A stretch of 64,000 nt of DNA from an uncultured Acetobacteroides sp. (lineage in GTDB: Bacteria > Bacteroidota > Bacteroidia > Bacteroidales > ZOR0009): positions 930,001-994,000 of the forward strand of contig NZ_OY782755.1 in the NCBI RefSeq assembly GCF_963678165.1, read 5' to 3'. This document shows positions 1 through 61,583 of the stretch, piece after piece. The notes below the pieces were generated by a model. The model searched no databases, had not been told where the DNA came from, and saw only the letters and a list, made by a program, of their open reading frames with translations. Each line of letters starts with the position of its first letter. Position 1 is the stretch's first letter. A program made the translations under genes and the position numbers.

Positions 1-1
1 C

Positions 2-3000
2 TCAAATACGCTGCTTAGTAGCCTAGAGTGCGGGAATAACCAGCTTATGTTCTCCACCCTGCCGGTTAAGTCAGGCCTTAAAACGTACACCTATATTCCG
101 CAAGCGTTGGTTACCATCGGTAAGGATATGACCGTAAACGGAAACACATTTAAGAATGTGAATGTTGGTGAAATAATAGATTTAAGCGCCGAGGCTACCG
201 TTGATGGCAAGAACACCACTTTCGTATGGAAGAAGCGAAGCGATGGCTCGGAGGTAAAACCAACAAGCAGTTCCGGTGCCAAGTTTACCTTCGATGAATC
301 TCTTGCAAAAGAGACCATCTATTGCGAGATGAGGAATGATGCGTTTCCCCAATTTGCTGGAGATAATTATCTTAAAACGGTAGATGTTGCTATAGGAAAC
401 TCTTTTGATATCTACAATGCCTATGAGGTGGGTAAACTACGCGCCTTCCTCGATCAGCCATCGGCGGTAGCCGGTAAGACCAACGGTTTGCAGGTGAATG
501 CGGGCTACAATTCCAACGATCCCTCCACCTTTGGGGTTACTTGGACAGAGGCTGCTGTTGAAAAGAGAGCTGAAAGAATAGTATGGTATAATAAAAGCCT
601 GTATGGAGATCTCTGTTTCCCCGATTTTACGAAGCTAACTTTATTTCTAGTTTACAACAACCAACTTAAAACGGCAAACTTAAGCGGTTGTACGATGCTA
701 AAAGACCTTCATGTGAATAGCAACCAGCTTACCAGCATCGACGTTTCGGGCTGTAACCAGCTTTGGTCGTTTAACTGTTATAATAATAAGCTTACGTCGT
801 TAAATGTTGGTTCACTAACAAAGCTAACAAACCTGTATTGCCAGAGTAACCAGTTTAAGTTCTCTACCCTACCGGTTAAATCGAGCCTAACAACGTACTC
901 CTATGCCCCACAAGGATATATAAATATTGGTAGAGATACTACAATTAATGGCAATGCTAAAAAATACATCAAAAGAGGGGAGGTTGTAGATTTAAGTAAC
1001 GAGATTGTTGTCGGTAGTAAACCGTCGGTTTTTGAGTGGAAGATGAGAAGAGATAACTCAAAAGTAACACCAGTATCGAACAATGAAGGTAAGTTTACTT
1101 TTGGTTCATCTCTTATTGGAGAGTCCATATACTGCGAGATGAATAATGCTGCGTTTCCTGATTTTGCTGGGTCTAATGTGCTTCATACTGTAGATGTATT
1201 GGTTACAGATGCTTATAACCAGAGTGATGTTGGTAAACTTAAGGCTTTTCTACAACAGGAATCTGCAATTTCCGGACAAAAGAATTATCAAAGAATAGGG
1301 TTGGAGGTTGATATAAACGACCCATCGTCGTGGCCATTGGTAGAGTGGACGGCTTCTTCAACGAATAAAAGGGTGAAATCAATTATCTGGATGCGGAAAG
1401 ATTTGGCAGGTAATTTGGACTTGTCGGGGTTGGATAGTTTAAAGTCGGTTGAACTTACCACCAATAAAATAGCTTCGGCAAACTTTAGTGGTTGTACAAA
1501 ACTCGAAAAGATTTGGTTGGATGAGAATACAGTAACCTCCATTAATACGTCAACTTTAGCCAGCCTTAAGGAACTTAATGTAAACTACAATAAAATTACT
1601 CAACTCGATCTCTCTGCAAATACGAAGTTAGAGGAAGCCGAGTTTGCGAGCAACCTGCTTACTACGGTTAAACTACCGAATACACCGACACTAGGTTCTG
1701 TACGTGCGACACGAAACAACTTTAAGTTGTCGACATTACCCCCTGCATTAAGTCAGTATTATAGCTACTTCTACCAGCCTCAGAATCCAATGGTAATTGG
1801 TGATGCTGTGCAAGAGAATGGGAAGACTATCTATAAGGTTGGATCATATACTACTATTGATTTAAGTAGCGAGTTGACTATTGGCGGTAAAACAACGACT
1901 TATTCGTGGTATAACGTTAGCAAGAAGGCGGATATTACTCCAAGAACTTCAGCAAACGGTAAGTTCTCTTTCGATAACACTGTTGAAGGCGATACGCTGA
2001 TATGCTATATGCGCAACGAGTCTTTCCCTGACTTTACGATGTTGTACCCATTTGAAACCGTGAAGGTGTTGGTTGTGTCAGGATACAACCAATACGAAGT
2101 GGGTAAGCTAAAAGCCTTTTTAGATCAACCTTCATCTGTAGCGGGTAAAACCAACGGGCAGCAGGTGAATGCCGCCTATGATCCAAACGACCCGTCTACC
2201 TTTGGGGTATCATGGACAGAGACTGCCATTGATAAGCAAGTGGCAAGCATATCATGGGCAACAAAGAGATTGTCGGGGAATTTAGACTTCTCCAACTTTA
2301 CGCGGTTAGGTTGGTTTTACATTTATGGTAACCAACTTAAAACGGCTAATGTTAGCGGTTGCACGATCCTTAACAACCTTCAGGTGGATAACAACCAGCT
2401 TACCAGCGTTGACGTTTCAGGCTGTAGCCAACTTTCGTGTTTTGAATGCCAAGGCAACAAACTCACGTCGTTAAATGTTGGTTCGCTAACAAAACTCACC
2501 TCCCTTAATGCGCAAAATAATAAGCTAAAGGAACTCGACCTTAACTCAAATACACTGCTTAGTATTCTATACTGCGGAGATAATCTGCTTAAGTTTTCGA
2601 CTTTACCTGTTAAGTCGAACCTTACAACGTACACCTATACCCCTCAAGGATTGATTGAGATTGGTAAGGACATAACAGTATACGGTAATACCTTTAAGCA
2701 TGTGGGGGTAAACGATGCTATCGATTTAAGCGCAGAGGCCACTATTGGAGGTGAAACTACAACCTTTGTGTGGAAGAAGCGGCGAGATGGCTCGGTGGTT
2801 ACCCCTGAAACCAACAATGGAGGTAAGTTTACCTTCAATACTTCGCTAACAAATGAGGCCATCTTCTGCGAGATGAGCAACGCTACCTTTCCCTCTTTTA
2901 CGGGGAATAACATTCTTAAAACGATAGATGTGGTAGTGGGCGATAACCCCAATCCCTACAATAAATATGAGGTTGATAAACTCAAAACATTCTTAAATCA

Positions 3001-5776
3001 ACCATCTGCTGTTGCTGGTAAAACTAACGGGCAACAGGTGAGTTCTGCCTACAATCCTGAAGATCCATCTACCTATGGAGTAACGTGGTCTTCAGATTTT
3101 TTTGAGAAAAAGGTTACTTCAATAGGTTGGAGTGCTAAGTCGTTAGCAGGGAATCTAGATTTATCTGGTTTTACTTCAATAGAGAGTATTGGTGGGGACT
3201 GGAATAGTTTAACAGGGGTGAATGTAAGAGGATGTTCTTCTTTGAGGTTGCTATATCTTTATGAAAATAAACTTACGTTGTTAGATGTTTTTGCTTGTGG
3301 AAAACTTGAATCTTTATTTTGTCAGAATAACCAGTTGGAAACTGTTGATTTAAGTACAACTCCTTTGTTGACATACTTTGATGTCAGTTTTAATAGTTTG
3401 AATTCTTTGGATTTAAAATCTCAAAATAGCCTGTATAAACTTAGTTGTGATAATAATAGGTTAACTTATTCTACCATGCCAACAAGGGCAGCATCTATAA
3501 CTACGTTTAGTTGTGTACCTCAAAAAAAGGTGGAAATTGGTGAAAAGCAGATTGCAGGAACGACTGAAAAGTATTTTCTGGGAGCTGATCAAGTTGTTGA
3601 TCTTAGCAAAGAAGATATTGTAAAAGGTGTTCAGACTACATTTACTTGGAAAGATAGTTATGGTTCGGTTGTGACCCCGACTACATCAAATGGAGGTAAG
3701 TTTACCTTTAACAGCACGTTTGTAGGAAAAAAGTTGTATTGTGAGATGGCTAATGCTGGCTTCCCAGATTTTGTTGGATATAACATTCTTAAGACTGTAA
3801 CAGTTGAAATAGTGCCTGCCTACAACCAAAATGATGTAGATAAACTAAAGGTATTCCTTAACAAGCCTTCGCAGGAGTCGGGGAAAACCAACGGTCAGCA
3901 ATTAAATACAACCTATAATCCTGAAGATCCTGCAACCTACGGGGTAGCTTGGAGTAGACATAATGTCAATAAGCGAGTAATTAACTTCCAATGGTATGAT
4001 AAGAAACTTTCGGGCGATTTAGACCTGAGCGGCTGCGAGTTATTGAATGATGTGTTTATTTCGAACAATAAGATTCCATCAGTTAACTTTAAGGAATGCT
4101 CATCGCTGGTAAATCTTTATGCCGAATCTAACGAAATCGCTTCGGCTTCATTTGATAAGCATCCATTACTTGAATCGGTTGACATTTCTCTGAATAAGTT
4201 AACTTCTCTTGCAATACCAGAGGCTCCAATGATCTCTTACCTTTTTGCGGCAGACAATAAGTTATCTCAGATAGATTTAAGTAAGATGGCTTCTTTAACC
4301 AGAGTCAAGTTAATGAGAAACGAGTTTTCTTCAATGGATGTATCTGGTCTTACCAAACTGCAGATGTTGAAGGTTGAAGGTAATAAAATTACCGGAGTAA
4401 AGTTTGGAGGTAACGAGCAGCTGGTTTTGGTAAACCTTGATAATAATCAGTTGTCATCTGTTGATGTTTCTAGCCTTACTTCTCTAAGCGATCTTGCTCT
4501 GTCGAATAATAAACTATTGCTTTCCAGATTGCCTCTTAGTAAGGCGGCCTATACAAATTATTCCTATGCACCTCAACCTTTAATGGCAGTAGGTCATGCT
4601 AAGCAGGAGGGGAACGACGTTAAGTATTTCATATGTGCAGAAGAACCATTGGACTTAAGTAGTGAACTTAACGTTGGTGGAAATGTGACGACATTTGTTT
4701 GGAAGAAAGCTGATGGAACTGTTGTTTTACCAACTACTTCAAATAATGGGGTATTTACTTTCTCTACGGACTTAATTGGCGAAACTCTTTATGGGGAACT
4801 GTCAAATGCTTCCTTTCCTGATTTTGCTGGTGATAAAGTATTTAAAACCGTAAAGTTTACAGTACTATCACCATACAACGAAGAGGAGGTTGCTAAACTG
4901 CTTGGCTTCTTTGGGCGTCCATCTATTAATGGAGCAACTAACGGTAGCAGCATTGGTATATCTAAGATGAATAATCCTAACTCTTGGCGAGGTATAGAAT
5001 GGACAAGTGAGGTTTCCGATAGACGAGTGAAGTCCATTAATTGGGCTAGTCTTGGAATAGCAGATACTCTTAATGTTTCTAATTTTGTTAAACTAAACTC
5101 AGTTGATGTCTCTGATAACAAGTTGACTAAGATAATTTCGAACAATACGCCACTCCTTAAAAGGGGTTTATTCAGTAGCAATAGTCTTAAGTTTTCTACT
5201 ATGCCGACAAGTACATCTTTTGATGAGTATAACTGCTTTCCTCAAGATAAACTGGAAATTGGGAAGAAGGCAGATAATGGCAGTTACACTTTAATGGCAG
5301 GTGAATATATCGATTTGAGTAGTGAAGTTGCAGTTGAAGGTCAAGCAACCAACTTTATCTGGAAGGATGAAGCAGGAAAGACAATTATTCCAACGAAGGC
5401 TGAAAATGGAAGGTTTGCCTTTAATAACGACTTTATTGGTCTAAAGATATACTGCGAACTCTCAAATTCTATATTTCCGAATGGAAGTATTCAAACTGTG
5501 TTTGTTCTCATTCCTAGTTCAAAGTTTGAAAGTAAGTTTGGAAAAGAGGTGAGTATTGCAGTTTACCCAAATCCAACCACCTCAATTCTTAAAGTCGAAA
5601 TTGATGAAGTAATTCGTGAATATCGTATTTATTCGGTAAGAGGAGTCTTGGTGAAATCAGGATCTATAAATGACTTTAAGGCAGAAATTAACGTGCAAAC
5701 CCTAACGTCAGGAACATATTTGCTTGAGTTGACTGATGGTGCCAAGGTTTACCGCTCAAAATTTATAAAGCAGTAA
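2..5776 (+). CDS. Giant modular leucine-rich-repeat surface protein with T9SS sorting domain (5' end outside window)
   Basis: The frame is open from base 2, and the residues before the first Met match an LRR segment repeated later (near 2545), so the gene starts upstream of the window. At least 1,900 residues are visible. They alternate between short LRR blocks of the SGCxxLxxLxxxxNQL type and an all-beta segment beginning FSTLPVKS or similar (near 50, 860, 1727, 2594, 3470, 4520 and 5198) and containing DLSxE, FxWKK and CEMxNxxFPxF motifs. The last 75 or so residues (from about 5550) are a type A T9SS sorting domain with YPNPT, SGTYLLEL and a basic end. A cell-surface or secreted protein exported through the outer membrane by T9SS is therefore expected. 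The ligand is unknown; adhesion is a guess. Some modules are almost identical at the DNA level, indicating recent internal duplication. Confidence 0.9.
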   Translation, partial: SNTLLSSLECGNNQLMFSTLPVKSGLKTYTYIPQALVTIGKDMTVNGNTFKNVNVGEIIDLSAEATVDGKNTTFVWKKRSDGSEVKPTSSSGAKFTFDESLAKETIYCEMRNDAFPQFAGDNYLKTVDVAIGNSFDIYNAYEVGKLRAFLDQPSAVAGKTNGLQVNAGYNSNDPSTFGVTWTEAAVEKRAERIVWYNKSLYGDLCFPDFTKLTLFLVYNNQLKTANLSGCTMLKDLHVNSNQLTSIDVSGCNQLWSFNCYNNKLTSLNVGSLTKLTNLYCQSNQFKFSTLPVKSSLTTYSYAPQGYINIGRDTTINGNAKKYIKRGEVVDLSNEIVVGSKPSVFEWKMRRDNSKVTPVSNNEGKFTFGSSLIGESIYCEMNNAAFPDFAGSNVLHTVDVLVTDAYNQSDVGKLKAFLQQESAISGQKNYQRIGLEVDINDPSSWPLVEWTASSTNKRVKSIIWMRKDLAGNLDLSGLDSLKSVELTTNKIASANFSGCTKLEKIWLDENTVTSINTSTLASLKELNVNYNKITQLDLSANTKLEEAEFASNLLTTVKLPNTPTLGSVRATRNNFKLSTLPPALSQYYSYFYQPQNPMVIGDAVQENGKTIYKVGSYTTIDLSSELTIGGKTTTYSWYNVSKKADITPRTSANGKFSFDNTVEGDTLICYMRNESFPDFTMLYPFETVKVLVVSGYNQYEVGKLKAFLDQPSSVAGKTNGQQVNAAYDPNDPSTFGVSWTETAIDKQVASISWATKRLSGNLDFSNFTRLGWFYIYGNQLKTANVSGCTILNNLQVDNNQLTSVDVSGCSQLSCFECQGNKLTSLNVGSLTKLTSLNAQNNKLKELDLNSNTLLSILYCGDNLLKFSTLPVKSNLTTYTYTPQGLIEIGKDITVYGNTFKHVGVNDAIDLSAEATIGGETTTFVWKKRRDGSVVTPETNNGGKFTFNTSLTNEAIFCEMSNATFPSFTGNNILKTIDVVVGDNPNPYNKYEVDKLKTFLNQPSAVAGKTNGQQVSSAYNPEDPSTYGVTWSSDFFEKKVTSIGWSAKSLAGNLDLSGFTSIESIGGDWNSLTGVNVRGCSSLRLLYLYENKLTLLDVFACGKLESLFCQNNQLETVDLSTTPLLTYFDVSFNSLNSLDLKSQNSLYKLSCDNNRLTYSTMPTRAASITTFSCVPQKKVEIGEKQIAGTTEKYFLGADQVVDLSKEDIVKGVQTTFTWKDSYGSVVTPTTSNGGKFTFNSTFVGKKLYCEMANAGFPDFVGYNILKTVTVEIVPAYNQNDVDKLKVFLNKPSQESGKTNGQQLNTTYNPEDPATYGVAWSRHNVNKRVINFQWYDKKLSGDLDLSGCELLNDVFISNNKIPSVNFKECSSLVNLYAESNEIASASFDKHPLLESVDISLNKLTSLAIPEAPMISYLFAADNKLSQIDLSKMASLTRVKLMRNEFSSMDVSGLTKLQMLKVEGNKITGVKFGGNEQLVLVNLDNNQLSSVDVSSLTSLSDLALSNNKLLLSRLPLSKAAYTNYSYAPQPLMAVGHAKQEGNDVKYFICAEEPLDLSSELNVGGNVTTFVWKKADGTVVLPTTSNNGVFTFSTDLIGETLYGELSNASFPDFAGDKVFKTVKFTVLSPYNEEEVAKLLGFFGRPSINGATNGSSIGISKMNNPNSWRGIEWTSEVSDRRVKSINWASLGIADTLNVSNFVKLNSVDVSDNKLTKIISNNTPLLKRGLFSSNSLKFSTMPTSTSFDEYNCFPQDKLEIGKKADNGSYTLMAGEYIDLSSEVAVEGQATNFIWKDEAGKTIIPTKAENGRFAFNNDFIGLKIYCELSNSIFPNGSIQTVFVLIPSSKFESKFGKEVSIAVYPNPTTSILKVEIDEVIREYRIYSVRGVLVKSGSINDFKAEINVQTLTSGTYLLELTDGAKVYRSKFIKQ

Positions 5777-10415: not shown

Positions 10416-11324
10416 ATGATAGCACTCAGCATAGAGAATATCAGAAAGCATTTTGGCGAGGTGGAAGCGCTGAAAGGTGTTTCGTTGAGCATAGAACAGG
10501 GGGAACTATTTGGGATAATTGGTCCAGATGGTGCCGGCAAGACTACCTTGTTTCGGTTGATTGCCTCGCTTCTGCTTCCTTCGTCGGGGAAGATAACTGC
10601 ACTCGGGCTCGATTCGGTGAAGGACTACAAGCAGATTCGAAAGATGGTGGGCTATATGCCCGGAAGGTTCTCGCTTTATCCCGACCTGACGGTTGCGGAG
10701 AATCTCAACTTCTTCGCATCGGTTTTCGGGACAACCATAGAGGAAAACTACGACCTGATTAAGCCTGTGTTTAAAATGTTAGAGCCATTTAAAGACAGGC
10801 CTGCAGGAAAGCTCTCGGGGGGAATGAAGCAGAAGCTAGCCCTCTCCTGTGCGCTGATCCATAAACCTGAATTGCTGCTGCTCGATGAGCCTACAACGGG
10901 CGTCGATGCTGTATCGCGAAAGGAGTTTTGGGAAATGCTTAAAATGCTAGAGCAGCATGGCATCACCATTGTAGTTTCGACGCCGTACATGGACGAGGCA
11001 AGCCTTTGCGATAGGGTTGCGCTCATTCAGTCGGGTGAGATCCTTAAGGTCGATAAGCCTTCTGCCATTATAAGAGATTTTAGCAAGCCGCTCTACGCTC
11101 TTCCAACGGTAAACATATACGCATCAATTAAGGCGTTGCGGGCGATGCCCGAGGTGGAAAGCGCATTCGCTTTTGGACAGAACGTACACGTTGTGCTGAA
11201 GAACGAAAATGCCAGAGCGAGCGTTGAGCAGAAGCTCGCAGAATGCGGAATCGCTCAACCCTTACAGCCAACCGAGGCGACCATCGAGGACTGCTTTATG
11301 GATTTGATGGTCTCGGTTAAGTAG
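10416..11324 (+). CDS. ABC transporter ATP-binding protein (first ATPase, YbhF N-half-like)
   Basis: This cytoplasmic ABC ATPase has about 302 residues. Walker A is GPDGAGKTT, the signature LSGGMKQK, Walker B LLLLDEPTTGVD, and the switch region STPYMDEA (His of the usual switch replaced by Pro). A GPDGAGKTT loop is typical of the N-terminal half of the fused ATPase YbhF. About 60-70 C-terminal residues form the extension seen in this subfamily. I prefer ATG 10416 to the GTG one codon upstream. It is followed by a DUF559 element rather than directly by the second ATPase gene. Confidence 0.9.
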   Translation: MIALSIENIRKHFGEVEALKGVSLSIEQGELFGIIGPDGAGKTTLFRLIASLLLPSSGKITALGLDSVKDYKQIRKMVGYMPGRFSLYPDLTVAENLNFFASVFGTTIEENYDLIKPVFKMLEPFKDRPAGKLSGGMKQKLALSCALIHKPELLLLDEPTTGVDAVSRKEFWEMLKMLEQHGITIVVSTPYMDEASLCDRVALIQSGEILKVDKPSAIIRDFSKPLYALPTVNIYASIKALRAMPEVESAFAFGQNVHVVLKNENARASVEQKLAECGIAQPLQPTEATIEDCFMDLMVSVK

Positions 11325-11400
11325 CTGCTGAAAGAGGTAAACAGCTATCGCTTTAATTAGATTGTTTAGGCTCAAAACTGAAGCGCTGCTTCTTATCGGA

Positions 11401-11433
11401 GGTTATCCCCCGCTGGCGGGGGCGAGGGGGTGG
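11401..11433 (+). repeat. Hairpin repeat copy a (left end of element 1)
   Basis: GGTTATCC is followed by the palindrome CCCCCGCTGGCGGGGG and GAGGGGGTGG. It is the inverted partner of 11871-11904 and belongs to the same family as the copies near 12839, 17003, 17975, 18251 and 24682. Confidence 0.8.
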
Positions 11434-11482
11434 AAGCAAAGGCGGCAATGAAAAGTCTTTTACTCACGTAAAATCAGCAATA

Positions 11483-11860
11483 ATGGACAACTCGGGCTAT
11501 AATAAAAAGCTGAAATCGTTTGCCAATAGCTTGCGGCATAACATGACTAAGGCAGAAGCTTGTCTTTGGAAGTACGCTTTGGGCAATAGGCAAATGATGG
11601 GCTTACAGTTTCGAAGGCAGCGTCCTATTCTTAGCTACATTGCCGATTTTGTATGCCTTGAATTGAAGCTAGTTATTGAGGTTGATGGCTACTCTCATCA
11701 GCTAGAGGAGGTCCATCTTCGTGATATGAAAAAGGAAGACGATCTTCGAAATGCAGGGTTCCGAATTCTTCGATTTTCCGATAACGAGGTGTTAAATCAC
11801 ATTCAAATGGTAAAAGAGGAGATTGAACGAACGATTATAAGTGTAAAGGGGGAGACTTAA
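11483..11860 (+). CDS. DUF559 (Vsr-like PD-(D/E)XK) endonuclease-domain protein
   Basis: The 125-residue protein has the DUF559 pattern: SLRHNMTKAEACLWKYAL, a basic QFRRQRPI segment, then IADFVCLELKLVIEVDGYSH, which carries the Asp and the EVD acidic pair of a PD-(D/E)XK/Vsr-like nuclease core, and FRILRFSDNEV. It probably cuts or nicks DNA in the cytoplasm, but no DUF559 substrate can be read from sequence. A second, divergent copy lies at 18294-18680 with the same flanking-repeat architecture. It interrupts an exporter operon and is unlikely to take part in export. Confidence 0.85.
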   Translation: MDNSGYNKKLKSFANSLRHNMTKAEACLWKYALGNRQMMGLQFRRQRPILSYIADFVCLELKLVIEVDGYSHQLEEVHLRDMKKEDDLRNAGFRILRFSDNEVLNHIQMVKEEIERTIISVKGET

Positions 11861-11870
11861 TGAAGGCTCC

Positions 11871-11904
11871 GTCCACCCCCTACCCCCGCCAGCGGGGGAT
11901 ATCC
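11871..11904 (-). repeat. Hairpin repeat copy b (right end of element 1)
   Basis: Read on the minus strand this is GGATATCC, CCCCCGCTGGCGGGGG core, then TAGGGGGTGGAC, nearly identical to copy a. It begins 10 bases after the DUF559 stop and could also act as its terminator. The remaining 120 bases before the next ATPase gene hold nothing else I recognise. Confidence 0.8.
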
Positions 11905-12028
11905 TTCGATTGATTGCTGGTTTATTCCTCAGCGAAGGCGAATTGAGGGTGGCATTTGGGGTTGAGCCTTTTATGCATGCTAAATGTGCCGCCGTATTTA
12001 GGCTAGCGTCTTTTTTCAAACAAGAATT

Positions 12029-12757
12029 ATGATTACCGATAGCAAGATAATAGAGGTTAAAGATCTGGTAAAGAAGTTCGGCAGCTTTGTTGCCAACGAC
12101 CATTTGACCTTCGACGTTTACCAAGGCGAGATATTCGGTTTCCTTGGGGCAAACGGCGCCGGGAAAACCACCGCCATCAAGATACTTTGCGGGCTATCCT
12201 CGCCCACATCGGGGAAAATCTCGGTGGCAGGCTTCGATGGCTACACGCAAACCGAGCTGATTAAGCGCAATATCGGCTACATGAGCCAGAAGTTCTCGCT
12301 ATACGAGGACCTAACGGTTGCCGAGAACATCCGATTCTACGGAGGCATCTACGGAATGGCGATGAAGGAGATCAAGCAGAAGACGGAGCAGCTGCTAAAG
12401 CGCTTAGGCTTTTACGAGGAGCGTAATACCCTTGTTGCATCGCTTCCACTTGGATGGAAGCAGAAGCTTGCCTTTTCCGTTGCCATATTTCACGATCCCA
12501 AAATCGTATTCCTTGACGAGCCAACGGGCGGCGTTGATCCCATAACGCGCCGACAGTTCTGGGAGCTGATATACGAGGCAACCGAACGCGGTATAACCGT
12601 GTTCGTAACCACCCACTACATGGACGAGGCGGAGTACTGCAACCGCGTTACCATTATGGTAAACGGCAAAATTGAAGCGCTCGATACCCCAACGATGCTT
12701 AAGGAAGCCTATAAGGCAGAAACTATGGACGAAGTCTTTCTAAAGCTCGCCCGATAG
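12029..12757 (+). CDS. ABC transporter ATP-binding protein (second ATPase, YbhF C-half-like)
   Basis: The 242-residue ABC ATPase has Walker A GANGAGKTT, a signature that reads LPLGWKQK rather than LSGGQ-like, Walker B IVFLDEPTGGVD and the switch His in TTHYMDEA. The altered signature (SLPLGWKQKLA) is typical of the C-terminal half of YbhF, which supports the view that this and the ATPase at 10416 are the two halves of one asymmetric ATPase encoded separately. It would pair with the permeases encoded downstream. Confidence 0.9.
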   Translation: MITDSKIIEVKDLVKKFGSFVANDHLTFDVYQGEIFGFLGANGAGKTTAIKILCGLSSPTSGKISVAGFDGYTQTELIKRNIGYMSQKFSLYEDLTVAENIRFYGGIYGMAMKEIKQKTEQLLKRLGFYEERNTLVASLPLGWKQKLAFSVAIFHDPKIVFLDEPTGGVDPITRRQFWELIYEATERGITVFVTTHYMDEAEYCNRVTIMVNGKIEALDTPTMLKEAYKAETMDEVFLKLAR

Positions 12758-12838
12758 GGAGTAGGGAGAAGGGAATAGCGATTAGAGAGTGATTGACGAA
12801 CGGGAGCGTTGAGACCTATTTTAGTAATCAATGTTCTT

Positions 12839-12875
12839 TATCCTCCCGCTTAGGCGGGAGGTAGGGGAGGGTAAA
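12839..12875 (+). repeat. Solitary hairpin repeat copy c
   Basis: TTATCCTCCCGCTTAGGCGG with the following GAGGTAGGGGAGGG forms the family hairpin and tail. The preceding TAATCAATGTTCT matches the outer flank of the other copies. It sits in the 187-bp gap between an ATPase gene and its permease gene. A partial GGTTATCCCTC at about 12889 may be the decayed partner. Confidence 0.7.
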
Positions 12876-17002: not shown

Positions 17003-17155
17003 GTTATCCTCCCGTTTAGGCGGGAGGTAGGGGGCTATCTTCGAAAAGAAATAGTCATATGTTGTAGTTTAGTTGGGCAATTCTGTAATAGGTACGTACG
17101 AATTAGTACTAGCCAGCCCAACTACCCTTGCCTCCCGCATTACGGGAGGATACAG
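17003..17155. mobile_element. Gene-less inverted pair of hairpin repeats (copies d and e)
   Basis: Copy d (17003-17036: GTTATCC, hairpin CTCCCGTTTAGGCGGGAG, GTAGGGGG) and inverted copy e (17117-17155: CCTCCCGCATTACGGGAGG then ATACAGAGCG) face each other across about 80 bp with no reading frame. This is the layout of a miniature, non-autonomous form of the DUF559 elements. The gap 16932-17225 holds little else. Confidence 0.65.
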
Positions 17156-17225
17156 AGCGATTAATCAACGTCGTGGCGTTGGTGTTGAGGTTTCCCTTCG
17201 CAACGGATTCTCTTTTGCCCGAGCC

Positions 17226-17974: not shown

Positions 17975-18137
17975 GCTCTTTATCCTCCCGCTTAGGCGGG
18001 AGGTAGGGAGTAATTGACGAATAAAACTAATATCTACTTAAGGCAAAATAGCAATCATCGCCTGCTAAATGACATTGCTCGCATAAGTTCGAGTACAACC
18101 CACCCCTTACCCCTCCCGAGGAGGGCATAAAGAGCGA
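17975..18137. mobile_element. Gene-less inverted pair of hairpin repeats (copies f and g)
   Basis: Copy f (17975-18010: CGCTCTTTATCC, hairpin CTCCCGCTTAGGCGGGAG, GTAGGGAG) and inverted copy g (18096-18137, ending GGGCATAAAGAGCG) enclose about 85 bp without a gene. The outer flank CGCTCTTTAT is the same on both ends when read inward, so the pair has terminal inverted repeats outside the hairpins too. The hairpin cores of f and g belong to two different subtypes. Confidence 0.65.
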
Positions 18138-18250
18138 TTAATCAGTGTCTATGCTAATAATTGGGGCGCGAGTTTGTATTAGAGTTGTAGCTTATGGCAT
18201 CCTTCGAAGATCTAAGGTTGTTTATTATGAGAATAGTTTGATACGAAGGT

Positions 18251-18747
18251 GGTTATCCCCTCCTTGGGAGGGGTAGGGGTGGGTTTTATGACGTTAATTA
18301 TCGATAGAACTCAACTCTATTACAGTATTCTCAATGACTAGTAAAACACCTTTGATGTTTTGAAACACTTCAACATCCTGAAAGCGGAGTAACCTGATGC
18401 CAAGTTCCTCTAAGCGTCTGCTTTTATCGACATCCTTTGCATAAACCTCTTCCAGCTGATGAGAATACCCATCGATTTCAATGGCTAGCATTAAATCGTT
18501 ACAGTAGAAATCTATGATATAGCTATCAATTGGCTTTTGGCGAGTGAAATCATAGCCAAGCATCTTCTTTGCCTTAAGATAGTTCCATAGAATTACCTCC
18601 GATTTGGTGGAATGCTTTCGTAGATGCTTGGCTAGCTCAACTAGCTTGGGATTGTAGGGAATTATCTTTGGCTTATTCATGGTATTGTTTACTTATTTCG
18701 ACTTTACCCACCCCCTGCCCCCTCCGAAGGAGGGGATAATGAGCGAT
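18251..18747. mobile_element. DUF559 element 2: nuclease gene flanked by inverted hairpin repeats
   Basis: Repeat h (18251-18287) and inverted repeat i (18705-18747) both contain a CCCCTCCTT(G/C)GGAGGGG hairpin and a GGGGTGGG tail facing inward. They enclose only the minus-strand DUF559 gene, whose stop is about 7 bases from h and whose start is about 25 bases from i. The order and spacing mirror element 1 although the hairpin sequence and the protein differ, which argues for a conserved unit. Confidence 0.7.
18294..18680 (-). CDS. DUF559 (Vsr-like PD-(D/E)XK) endonuclease-domain protein, second copy
   Basis: The 128-residue protein carries the same motifs as the copy at 11483: LRKHSTKSEVILWNYLK, YDFTRQKPI, IIDFYCNDLMLAIEIDGYSH with the nuclease Asp and EID pair, and IRLLRFQDVEV. 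The two copies share the invariant GYSHQLEEV block but differ elsewhere, so they are old paralogues rather than a fresh duplication. The role is probably DNA cleavage or nicking; the close fit to its flanking repeats suggests these are its substrate. Confidence 0.85.
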   Translation of the reverse strand: MNKPKIIPYNPKLVELAKHLRKHSTKSEVILWNYLKAKKMLGYDFTRQKPIDSYIIDFYCNDLMLAIEIDGYSHQLEEVYAKDVDKSRRLEELGIRLLRFQDVEVFQNIKGVLLVIENTVIELSSIDN

Positions 18748-18807
18748 TAATTATTGTCTAAACCTTATTTATGAGGGTTTTGTTTTACAATCCCTTTATC
18801 TAAATCC

Positions 18808-24681: not shown

Positions 24682-24725
24682 CGCTCTTTATCACCTTCAT
24701 TGGAGGGGTAAGGGGTGGGTTTTTT
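24682..24725 (+). repeat. Solitary hairpin repeat copy j
   Basis: CGCTCTTTATC, an imperfect hairpin CCTTCATTGGAGGGG and GTAAGGGGTGGG match the family, including the outer CGCTCTTTAT flank. It lies in the 330-bp gap between nadE and the next outer-membrane protein gene. The rest of that gap shows no gene. Confidence 0.65.
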
Positions 24726-52660: not shown

Positions 52661-52766
52661 CTCTACCTGTTTTTTTGATGCAATTATAGCGATTAAACCG
52701 GTATTCCGCTTGCCGATCGCCAATATTTCCCTTGCTCTTTGCTAGCCTACTCAAATGGCTCGCTCC

Positions 52767-53144
52767 CTGCCTGCAGTGGCCCATTTCCTGCCCGAAGCTT
52801 TTCGCTCCGTGCCTGTCACTTCTGCTTCCGAGTCTGTCACTTCTGCCTTCGTGCCTGAAACTTTTCGCTTGGTGCCTGAAACTTTTCGCTTGGTGTCTGT
52901 AGCTTTTGGCTTCGTGCCTGTAGCTTTTGGCTTCGTGCCTGTAGCTTTTAGCTCCGTGTCTGAAACTTCTGCCTCCGTGTTTGAAGCTTTTGACTTCGTG
53001 TCTGTCACTTTTGGCTTCGTGCCTGTAGCTTTTCGCTTGGTGTCTGTAGCTTTTAGCTCCGTGTCTGAAACTTCTGCCTCCGTGTTTGTAACTTTTGCCT
53101 TCGTGTCTGTCACTTTTAGCTTCGTATCTGTAGCTTTTACCTTC
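52767..53144. repeat. About 18-copy 21-bp minisatellite
   Basis: Seventeen regular units plus one degenerate unit follow each other exactly every 21 bases, e.g. GTGCCTGTAGCTTTTGGCTTC and GTGTCTGAAACTTCTGCCTCC. Positions 1-3 and 7-15 of the unit are most conserved. Both strands remain open in several frames. The minus strand would encode heptads of the type K-x-K-(A/V)-(T/S)-(D/G)-T starting at an ATG at 53146. No ribosome-binding site is convincing, so I treat it as a repeat rather than a gene. Confidence 0.85.
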
Positions 53145-53207
53145 ATAATTACTATCTAGAGCTAATCAAGCCCCCTATAACCTTAACGGGCATCCGGTGG
53201 CGCATCC

Positions 53208-60451: not shown

Positions 60452-60550
60452 ACTAAAGTGCAAAGGTATCTACGTTTTATTCTTCTAGCAGTGATGTTGG
60501 TTATTGCTTTTGATTTTGTAATGCTTTGATAGTTAATGATCCGTTATTAG

Positions 60551-60594
60551 AATAAATTAGGGAAGTAGGAAGAATCCTACTTCCCTAATTTATT
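60551..60594. terminator. Perfect 20-bp bidirectional terminator hairpin
   Basis: AATAAATTAGGGAAGTAGGA pairs perfectly with its complement around AGAA, between the convergent nuclease and lipoprotein genes. The right arm covers the stop codon of the minus-strand gene. Confidence 0.85.
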
Positions 60595-61583
60595 CTCTTT
60601 TTAACTAGTATCGAGTCTAAATCGTTTGTGTTGTAGTAACTGAATGTAAGTTTATAAATTGGGTCTTTTGTTTTACCGTTATGGTTGTAAATGGTGACCT
60701 CTTCAATTTTATTCTGATTGTTAAGTCTGTATTGTTCCTCCATAATAGATTTGTCTTTTGTAATAATTGTTCTGCCAACAGGTCTTTTCTCGTAGTAGGT
60801 GTAGGTGATTGTTTCTCGTTTTTGTGTTCGTGGGTATAATTTTATGATCTGCTCTATATTTCCATCGTTATTTAGAGATGTGCTACTTATCATTCTAGGA
60901 TTAACAAGGTCATTGTATTCGCGAACTATTAGGTTCTTATTTCGTGTATTTTCTTTCCAACTAGGTGATTTGTCGTATATGAGAAAGAAACTGGAGTACG
61001 ACTTGATATCTTGAAAGTCAGTGTTTTTTTGATCTCCTGATATTAACTGGTTGTCAAAAGAAAACTTATAGATATCTACTAACTTGAAATTCTGATTTTT
61101 TGTGTCGTACTTGTACATCAACATATTCTTGATAGTATGGCTAACTGCATCAAGATTCTTTCTGTTTTTGATGGCTAAAACAGTGAGTTCATTATTCTTT
61201 TGGTTGGAGTAGTAATCTGTCTCTTTTTTTTGATTGAGAATGTCGAGAACATCATTTCCAAGATTTTTTTGCGCTGCAACTCTAATGCCCGGATCGTTTA
61301 TGCCGAGTATAAGTAATCCATCCGCACCATATTGTTGTGCAATGCGTTTAAGGTAATTTACTTGTTTGTCTATGTCGTCATTGGTGAATGTCTGCTGAAT
61401 AACACCGACCTTGACGTAGGATTTTGGATCAGGAAATTTGTCAGCATTGTAGTATGTAGACACATTATTGTTATGGCTTGGGAATGGGTAAGCCATAAGT
61501 AAATTAATTTTGGGCTGATGATATGATCTCATACAGCTTGAAACAAGGATTGTTGCAACTAAAAGGTAAAGTAACTTCTTCAT
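60585..61583 (-). CDS. Uncharacterised lipoprotein
   Basis: The 332-residue protein has a lipoprotein signal (YLLVATILVSSC, Cys17) and no domain I recognise. The N-terminal part has KVGVIQQTFTNDDIDKQVNYLKRIAQQYGADGLLILGI, which could be a small Rossmann-like segment, and the C-terminal part is beta-rich with repeated YKLTFSYYNT-like strands that resemble RHS/YD-type or MORN-like tracking of text-like repeats. It is alone between terminators. The function is unknown. Confidence 0.65.
   Translation of the reverse strand: MKKLLYLLVATILVSSCMRSYHQPKINLLMAYPFPSHNNNVSTYYNADKFPDPKSYVKVGVIQQTFTNDDIDKQVNYLKRIAQQYGADGLLILGINDPGIRVAAQKNLGNDVLDILNQKKETDYYSNQKNNELTVLAIKNRKNLDAVSHTIKNMLMYKYDTKNQNFKLVDIYKFSFDNQLISGDQKNTDFQDIKSYSSFFLIYDKSPSWKENTRNKNLIVREYNDLVNPRMISSTSLNNDGNIEQIIKLYPRTQKRETITYTYYEKRPVGRTIITKDKSIMEEQYRLNNQNKIEEVTIYNHNGKTKDPIYKLTFSYYNTNDLDSILVKKRIN

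Follow-up and report, generated by a model that had tools for sequence, protein, structure and literature searches.

Standalone genes for nucleases of the DUF559 family (PF04480) are often found between inverted repeats made of hairpins whose tails mirror the stem, and the same repeats occur without the gene, both singly and as inverted pairs, with whole units differing in presence or position between relatives. An association of DUF559 with this class of repeat can be regarded as almost certain. The explanation considered probable is a widespread mobile repeat system of the REPIN/RAYT-like kind, in which a nuclease of the Vsr/homing type would recognize the folded repeats. Each of the three components (these repeats, this nuclease family, a REPIN/RAYT-like way of life) is already known; no paper linking DUF559 or ycjD (the DUF559 gene of E. 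coli K-12) with repeats was found in the open-licence literature searched.

The stretch of DNA analysed (the window) comprises 64,000 nucleotides from an uncultured Acetobacteroides sp. Both of its DUF559 genes were found to be enclosed by inverted hairpin repeats with a G-rich tail, as an earlier note made from the sequence had claimed, and the following features make up the two units.

11483..11860, + strand: unit 1 DUF559 nuclease gene, 125 aa (PF04480, 108.2 bits; cut-off 20.6)
11395..11436, + strand: unit 1 left repeat arm, hairpin CCCCCGC/GCGGGGG with the gene-facing tail GAGGGGGTGG
11872..11910, - strand: unit 1 right repeat arm, inverted, beginning 11 nt past the stop codon
18294..18680, - strand: unit 2 DUF559 nuclease gene, 128 aa (PF04480, 95.7 bits; cut-off 20.6)
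18253..18287 (about), + strand: unit 2 stop-side repeat arm, TTATCCCCTCC..GGAGGGG-TA-GGGGTGGG
18705..18751 (about), - strand: unit 2 start-side repeat arm, with the spacer CA and not TA, and the outer sequence GAGCGATTAAT

The arms of unit 1 (11395-11429 and 11876-11910) are 86% complementary over 35 nt, each consisting of the stem CCCCCGC..GCGGGGG followed by a G-rich tail. The general layout of the window's arms is TTATCC or a similar sequence, a GC stem-loop, a spacer of 2-3 nt and a G-rich tail toward the gene, with the tails directed inward in both units, and the interiors of the two units contain no gene besides DUF559. The similar spacing described in the earlier note was also recovered, the stop-side arm beginning 11 nt (unit 1) or 9 nt (unit 2) past the stop codon and the other arm lying, as read from the sequence, approximately 47 nt (unit 1) or 24 nt (unit 2) from the start codon. 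A loose pattern for the repeat (TATCCN{6,24}GGGG) gave 19 matches in the window, several of them overlapping and some not repeats, against 5.0 expected, and none of 100 shuffles reached 19. The fold energies of five arms as single-stranded DNA had z values ranging from -0.7 to -3.6; for some arms, the energy of the hairpin alone is thus weak evidence. Readings of the arms as an ordinary terminator or as members of an Rfam family were rejected, with no terminator-like site found in 11300-12050 and no Rfam family in the window at gathering score. Repeats of other kinds were also observed in the window, namely a long tandem repeat with a 21-nt period (52726-53187), a perfect 22-nt inverted repeat with a 4-nt loop (60549-60596) and long diverged repeats spaced 810, 1671 and 1734 nt (1-3840), the last likely to represent a protein with repeated domains.

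Searching the genome (4.30 Mb, one contig) raised the two DUF559 genes noted earlier to four. Of the two additional genes, one (L003) was judged by eye to lie between hairpins of a different type, one arm of which has a mini-hairpin separating stem from tail (the automatic inverted-repeat score of L003 being only 23), and the other (L004) is unframed, with direct repeats downstream instead. A strict pattern (TTATCCN{8,22}GGTAGGGG) identified 41 dispersed copies genome-wide versus one for the reversed pattern. The window also contains gene-less repeats, including two inverted pairs that were missed in the earlier note, as follows.

17004..17166, no strand assigned: gene-less inverted pair 1, ends approximate
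17975..18144, no strand assigned: gene-less inverted pair 2, ends approximate
12833..12872, + strand: single repeat copy, the relative G002 having at the same place a copy with a different stem
24682..24721, + strand: single repeat copy, found as an inverted repeat

At 12833-12872 the flanks match those of the G002 copy (L188) and the stem type differs at the same intergenic place; the stems seem to have been swapped or converted.

Thirty genomic copies were read with their flanks, 26 of which were placed by a looser pattern. An inward-facing inverted partner was found at 51-54 nt for ten of these 26 (nine pairs) and an outward-facing one for none, and by eye some further copies also have a partner, overlooked by the pattern. 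Seven of the nine pairs share a similar inner 50 nt, an eighth appears to be the same in reverse and one differs (L008). Where an arm was picked by its TA spacer, the spacer of its partner was CA in eight of nine pairs; stem types vary freely from arm to arm. The pairs with a partner at 51-54 nt represent a short element of the non-autonomous kind. In the window, the arms of the two gene-less pairs are farther apart (by roughly 85-95 nt) and the interiors differ; constant spacing therefore applies only within a subfamily.

The conserved architecture that the earlier note had proposed, together with its analogy to RAYTs and REPINs, is supported far beyond this genome. A unit was counted as framed when the best inverted match between its two flanks scored at least 34. 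This was the case for 42 of 90 standalone DUF559 units with full flanks from relatives and a class sample, for 23 of 49 in a sample of named genomes from many phyla (among the matches listed) and for five of 12 loci on named replicons. The framed units of the many-phyla sample include those of Acinetobacter (L313), Rufibacter (L265), Nostoc (L301), Reyranella (L324) and Viridilinea (L288). When the upstream flank of one unit was set against the downstream flank of another, the score was reached by 141 of 8010 combinations (1.8%) in the class sample and 66 of 2352 (2.8%) in the many-phyla sample. Among control genes for small nucleases of the same superfamily and class, none was framed (YraN 0/26, Vsr 0/25), even at a score of 30. 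Furthermore, an arm of the triplex type (described below) was found beside 40 of 89 DUF559 genes, versus 0/26 for YraN, 0/25 for Vsr and 0/89 for shuffled flanks. Chance or composition as a reading of the framing is ruled out by the mismatched flanks, control genes and shuffles.

The class sample consisted of automatically retrieved loci and 60 standalone places in listing order, leaving out 18 further picked places (four of them near contig ends) and unlisted lower-scoring matches; the many-phyla sample was drawn from the best 80 loci among the matches listed, with 51 of 84 matches falling within the standalone limits. Dropped before counting for short flanks were 5 of 95 class units and 2 of 51 many-phyla units, and 4 of 30 YraN and 5 of 30 Vsr loci were likewise dropped before counting, the control flanks having been set from rough gene starts. 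Several sampled units share a genome and are thus not independent.

Among 56 well-framed units, the median distance from stop codon to repeat is 9 nt, with tails directed inward in 16, outward in five and without a call in 35. DUF559 genes lacking the repeats had been named in the earlier note as evidence against its reading, and here the outcome is mixed, as about half of the standalone units possess no inverted pair at the score-34 threshold and the rest are framed. The unit of Synechocystis B12, which on inspection by eye is framed, scores 20. Real cases are thus lost at this threshold, but many of the units below it may be truly unframed.

The tail of the repeat, when read backwards, was found to follow the stem's purine strand, with A faced by T or A and G faced by G, a feature that was missed in the earlier note. 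Examples are provided by L037 (stem GGAGAGGG, tail GGGTGAGG), L130 (stem AAGGGGG, tail GGGGGTT) and L058 (stem AGGGAGGGG, tail GGGGTGGGT). Hairpins were selected blind to the tail apart from its initial GG, which was then excluded from the test. Across 75 distinct stem-tail pairs the mirror match holds at 327 of 459 positions, against a permuted mean of 249.4 (sd 9.4) with none of 5000 permutations as high; only identical stem-tail pairs were dropped from this test, related arms remaining in it. The direct register was at chance in the same permutation test (z -0.41), and the first set alone gave 192 of 276 versus 147.9. A or T stands in the tail opposite 107 of 152 stem A positions and opposite 64 of 307 stem G positions. 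As judged from sequence, this is the code of an antiparallel purine-motif triplex. In some alphaproteobacterial arms (L303, L321 and L324) a variable mini-hairpin was seen by eye between stem and tail, as expected if the two must fold back on each other. Because the tail mirrors the purine strand of the stem by the triplex code, the repeats resemble the BoxC/PIT/intrastrand triplex repeats, a likeness also missed in the earlier note.

The residues E25, W29, Q46, D55, E66, D68, G69 and H72 are invariant in both DUF559 alignments (34 and 48 sequences), and the protein of unit 1 has the family's invariant E25, D55, E66, D68 and H72. A single-domain model of its 125 aa was predicted with a pLDDT of 89.9 (a single-sequence model with a pLDDT of 39.1 was set aside). 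The best matches of the model are 3HRL (Neisseria) and the catalytic domain of the homing nuclease I-Bth0305I (3R3P, EDxHD catalytic-domain fold; TM 0.79 by target, E 6e-5), with E. coli Vsr being a weak match (E 0.0098). On the basis of this predicted structure, the DUF559 protein is likely to be a hydrolytic nuclease. A PD-(D/E)XK nuclease is unable to join ends alone; strand transfer is thus not expected, and repair or replication would have to finish the reaction.

Comparison between genomes revealed differences in the presence and position of whole units. Unit 1 is flanked by two ABC ATPase genes, which are separated by 704 nt. At the same place in two genomes of the genus no DUF559 gene is present, and the distance between the blocks aligning on either side is 41 nt in G002 and 59 nt in G001. 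The extra stretch at this place is longer than the unit, and the edges are therefore undefined there. The alignment of unit 2 to G002 covers 501 nt, of which 409 are identical, and extends from TTATCC to GATTAAT outside the far repeat, but in G002 the unit occupies the opposite side of a small adjacent gene that by eye is HTH-like. The relative of the unit 2 gene in G002 (L053) was observed to have an internal stop, with the surrounding repeats kept.

The three genomes of the genus carry 41 (G000), 26 (G002) and 0 (G001) strict copies of the repeat, of which one of the 41 and two of the 26 are not repeats by eye, and they encode four, two and no DUF559 genes, respectively. In 38 other relatives there were 0 or 1 strict matches each, none of them repeat-like by eye. 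The earlier note had also held that abundant repeats in genomes with no DUF559 gene would speak against it. Here too the outcome is mixed: the one genome of the genus with no DUF559 gene has no strict copy and that with two has 26, but G002 possesses 18 places resembling the repeat of unit 1 without having unit 1. The repeat of one unit in G028 occurs 16 times there, against a single occurrence across the 40 other genomes.

At one point of pglX three states were seen: Planktothrix lacks an insert, Pseudanabaena galeata has an inverted pair inside an open frame, and Synechocystis B12 carries a complete DUF559 unit. In the Pseudanabaena galeata gene (L252), pairs apparently lie inside the open frame in two places and yield stretches rich in proline and glycine, and the Planktothrix gene (L253) has other in-frame repeated stretches (ILSETKDL..AQND type), by eye possibly another palindrome family. 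Between hrpB and mrcB of E. coli, among five strains picked from the listing, two lack repeats, MG1655 and KY204 have two different pairs and UTAK-8 has a collapsed pair. Neither a target-site duplication nor an exact empty site was obtained at the sites read, where the flanks differ or are too diverged or altered. The interval sapF-fabI of E. coli was considered as an empty site and rejected, as the four strains without ycjD that were read carry efflux genes there (PMC12817139, in the text available), which indicates replacement.

Some DUF559 genes apparently hold conserved positions, such as the order sapF-ycjD-fabI in E. coli. The gene apparently lies beside dnaG in sphingomonads (yqeY-DUF559-dnaG in L159, L298 and L319, two by eye) and apparently lodged between pheS and pheT in Bradyrhizobium (L291, L323 and L334, partly by eye). 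Four Bradyrhizobium loci examined by eye have repeats upstream only (three) or none (one). These positions suggest that many copies are now settled, and the gene seems to be settled at a fixed operon position in several lineages. RAYT genes are also often settled at a fixed operon position.

The DUF559 nuclease quite likely acts on the folded repeats; that it cuts them, and how, is proposed as follows. A repeat exposed as a single strand (on the lagging strand or during repair) would fold into a hairpin or intrastrand triplex. The DUF559 protein, as a hydrolytic nuclease of Vsr/EDxHD type, would recognize this fold and cut beside it, and host repair, replication or gene conversion would then re-insert or copy the unit, or a gene-less pair in trans. 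Spread of the units and gene-less pairs that depends on the nuclease is considered probable, with somewhat less assurance than its action on the folded repeats. A more tentative suggestion, less likely than not, is a distinct class of DNA mobility in which intrastrand-triplex folds, frequently of two arm types, form both ends of the element, and in which a hydrolytic nuclease of the Vsr/homing type would read the folded DNA and move or copy the element.

The main rival, which is rather unlikely, is that DUF559 is a settled host repair nuclease that resolves or trims hairpins or triplexes at stalled forks, the nearby repeats being its substrates or autoregulators and the units moving only by recombination between repeats. 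Such recombination could move units without the nuclease, the exchange of stem types between copies is what gene conversion would give, and the apparently conserved positions sapF-ycjD-fabI, yqeY-DUF559-dnaG and pheS-DUF559-pheT fit this account, as does the Caulobacter DUF559 protein VsrA, which is needed for the SOS response in a methylase mutant according to the available text of PMC12907096. However, the different position of unit 2 with its edges at the repeats, the occurrence of up to 11 DUF559 matches per genome, the confinement of repeats to carriers and a gene-less pair family of constant length all point to a replicating unit.

It is less probable still that DUF559 behaves like a homing endonuclease gene, cutting repeat-less alleles at preferred sites and being copied in by repair, with the repeats as mere ends or insulators. 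Spread of the repeats without the gene argues against this, as do the single small domain with no obvious region for binding a long DNA target and the fact that no intron or intein was noticed around the units read; the similarity of the fold to 3HRL and the I-Bth0305I domain, and the occupation of the same pglX point in two cyanobacteria, are the evidence in its favour. That DUF559 is cargo (a passenger or defence gene) on hairpins moved by another enzyme, such as a Y1/RAYT transposase, is very improbable, for although RAYTs use hairpins and the genome has seven Y1_Tnp matches (six over the cut-off), none of four Y1_Tnp loci read carries GGTAGGGG within approximately 1.5 kb, no further gene lies in either window unit, the strict repeat is absent from the same-genus genome without DUF559 (G001) and PADLOC gives only weak matches. 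Two of these Y1_Tnp loci (L338-L341) gave scores of 47 and 34, with rough flank coordinates, for inverted repeats of another kind in their flanks.

Should such a distinct class of mobility be real, DUF559/YcjD would be the missing enzyme for BoxC/PIT/triplex repeats in hundreds of genomes, including that of E. coli K-12, and the reported instability near these repeats would have an explanation. The REP-like way of life would then have arisen with a nuclease and a DNA fold that are both unrelated to those of REPs. A function for DUF559, a large and little-characterised family, would be suggested as well. Bacterial triplex-forming repeats, known as orphan repeats since the 1990s, were connected with genome instability; the available text of PMC4666352 names no enzyme, and a gene family recurrently framed by them makes the question testable in E. 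coli K-12 through ycjD.

Regarding known systems, the DUF559 protein shares its predicted fold with Vsr and the EDxHD homing endonucleases (I-Bth0305I). It differs from Vsr in that unit 1 scores 23.1 bits on TIGR00632, far under the cut-off of 97.85, and from the EDxHD homing endonucleases in that its model is without an extra DNA-binding region for a long target. The CGTC-tagged REPs are similar as palindromic repeats without a known transposase in the text available of Di Nocera et al. 2013 (PMC3733652). They were rejected as partners of DUF559, as CGTC-like repeats lie less than 400 nt from only two of 167 unit records, a count in which a few loci appear twice and the pattern is an interpretation of that paper's wording.

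The REP/REPIN systems with RAYT (TnpA-REP) share a small nuclease gene between inverted hairpin repeats and dispersed gene-less pairs (PMC3733652, in the text available). Unlike the HUH Y1 enzyme of those systems, the nuclease here is of the PD-(D/E)XK/Vsr type, the ORFs between the repeats belonging to PF04480 with a Vsr/homing-nuclease fold, and the repeats have a mirror tail where REPs have a GTAG tag at the hairpin foot. GTAG was found only in arms with the TA spacer, within the stem end and spacer, the other arms having CA or CG.

The closest comparison is with BoxC, also named PIT or the intrastrand triplex motif (TM; TMECO in E. coli), reported in over 260 genomes and forming a triplex in vitro for TMECO (Holder et al. 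2015, PMC4666352, in the text available). In the same text, E. coli MG1655 has 23 copies, including five inverted pairs of type A with type B, and instability is reported around the repeats; no triplex was seen in vivo by DMS footprint, no mobility activity was found near the E. coli copies and no partner gene is named, the text having no occurrence of endonuclease, nuclease, ycjD or DUF at the start of a word. The copy TMECO 9 (1351204-1351239) and the stop codon of ycjD (1351407-1351760) are 168 nt apart, and at ycjD repeats are present on one side only. A 901-nt query with ycjD has one place covering at least 80% of it in 3364 of 5426 E. coli genomes. The window arms miss the E. coli consensus (CCCTCNCCC..GGGNGAGGGN3GGGNGAGGG), which the copy beside ycjD fits. 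Both groups of repeats are dispersed in multiple copies, some as inverted pairs, both combine a hairpin with a third strand that follows the class II purine-triplex code across a short second loop, and both include inverted pairs with two arm types, TTA and CCG in E. coli and, in eight of nine pairs picked by a TA spacer, TA and CA in the genome studied here.
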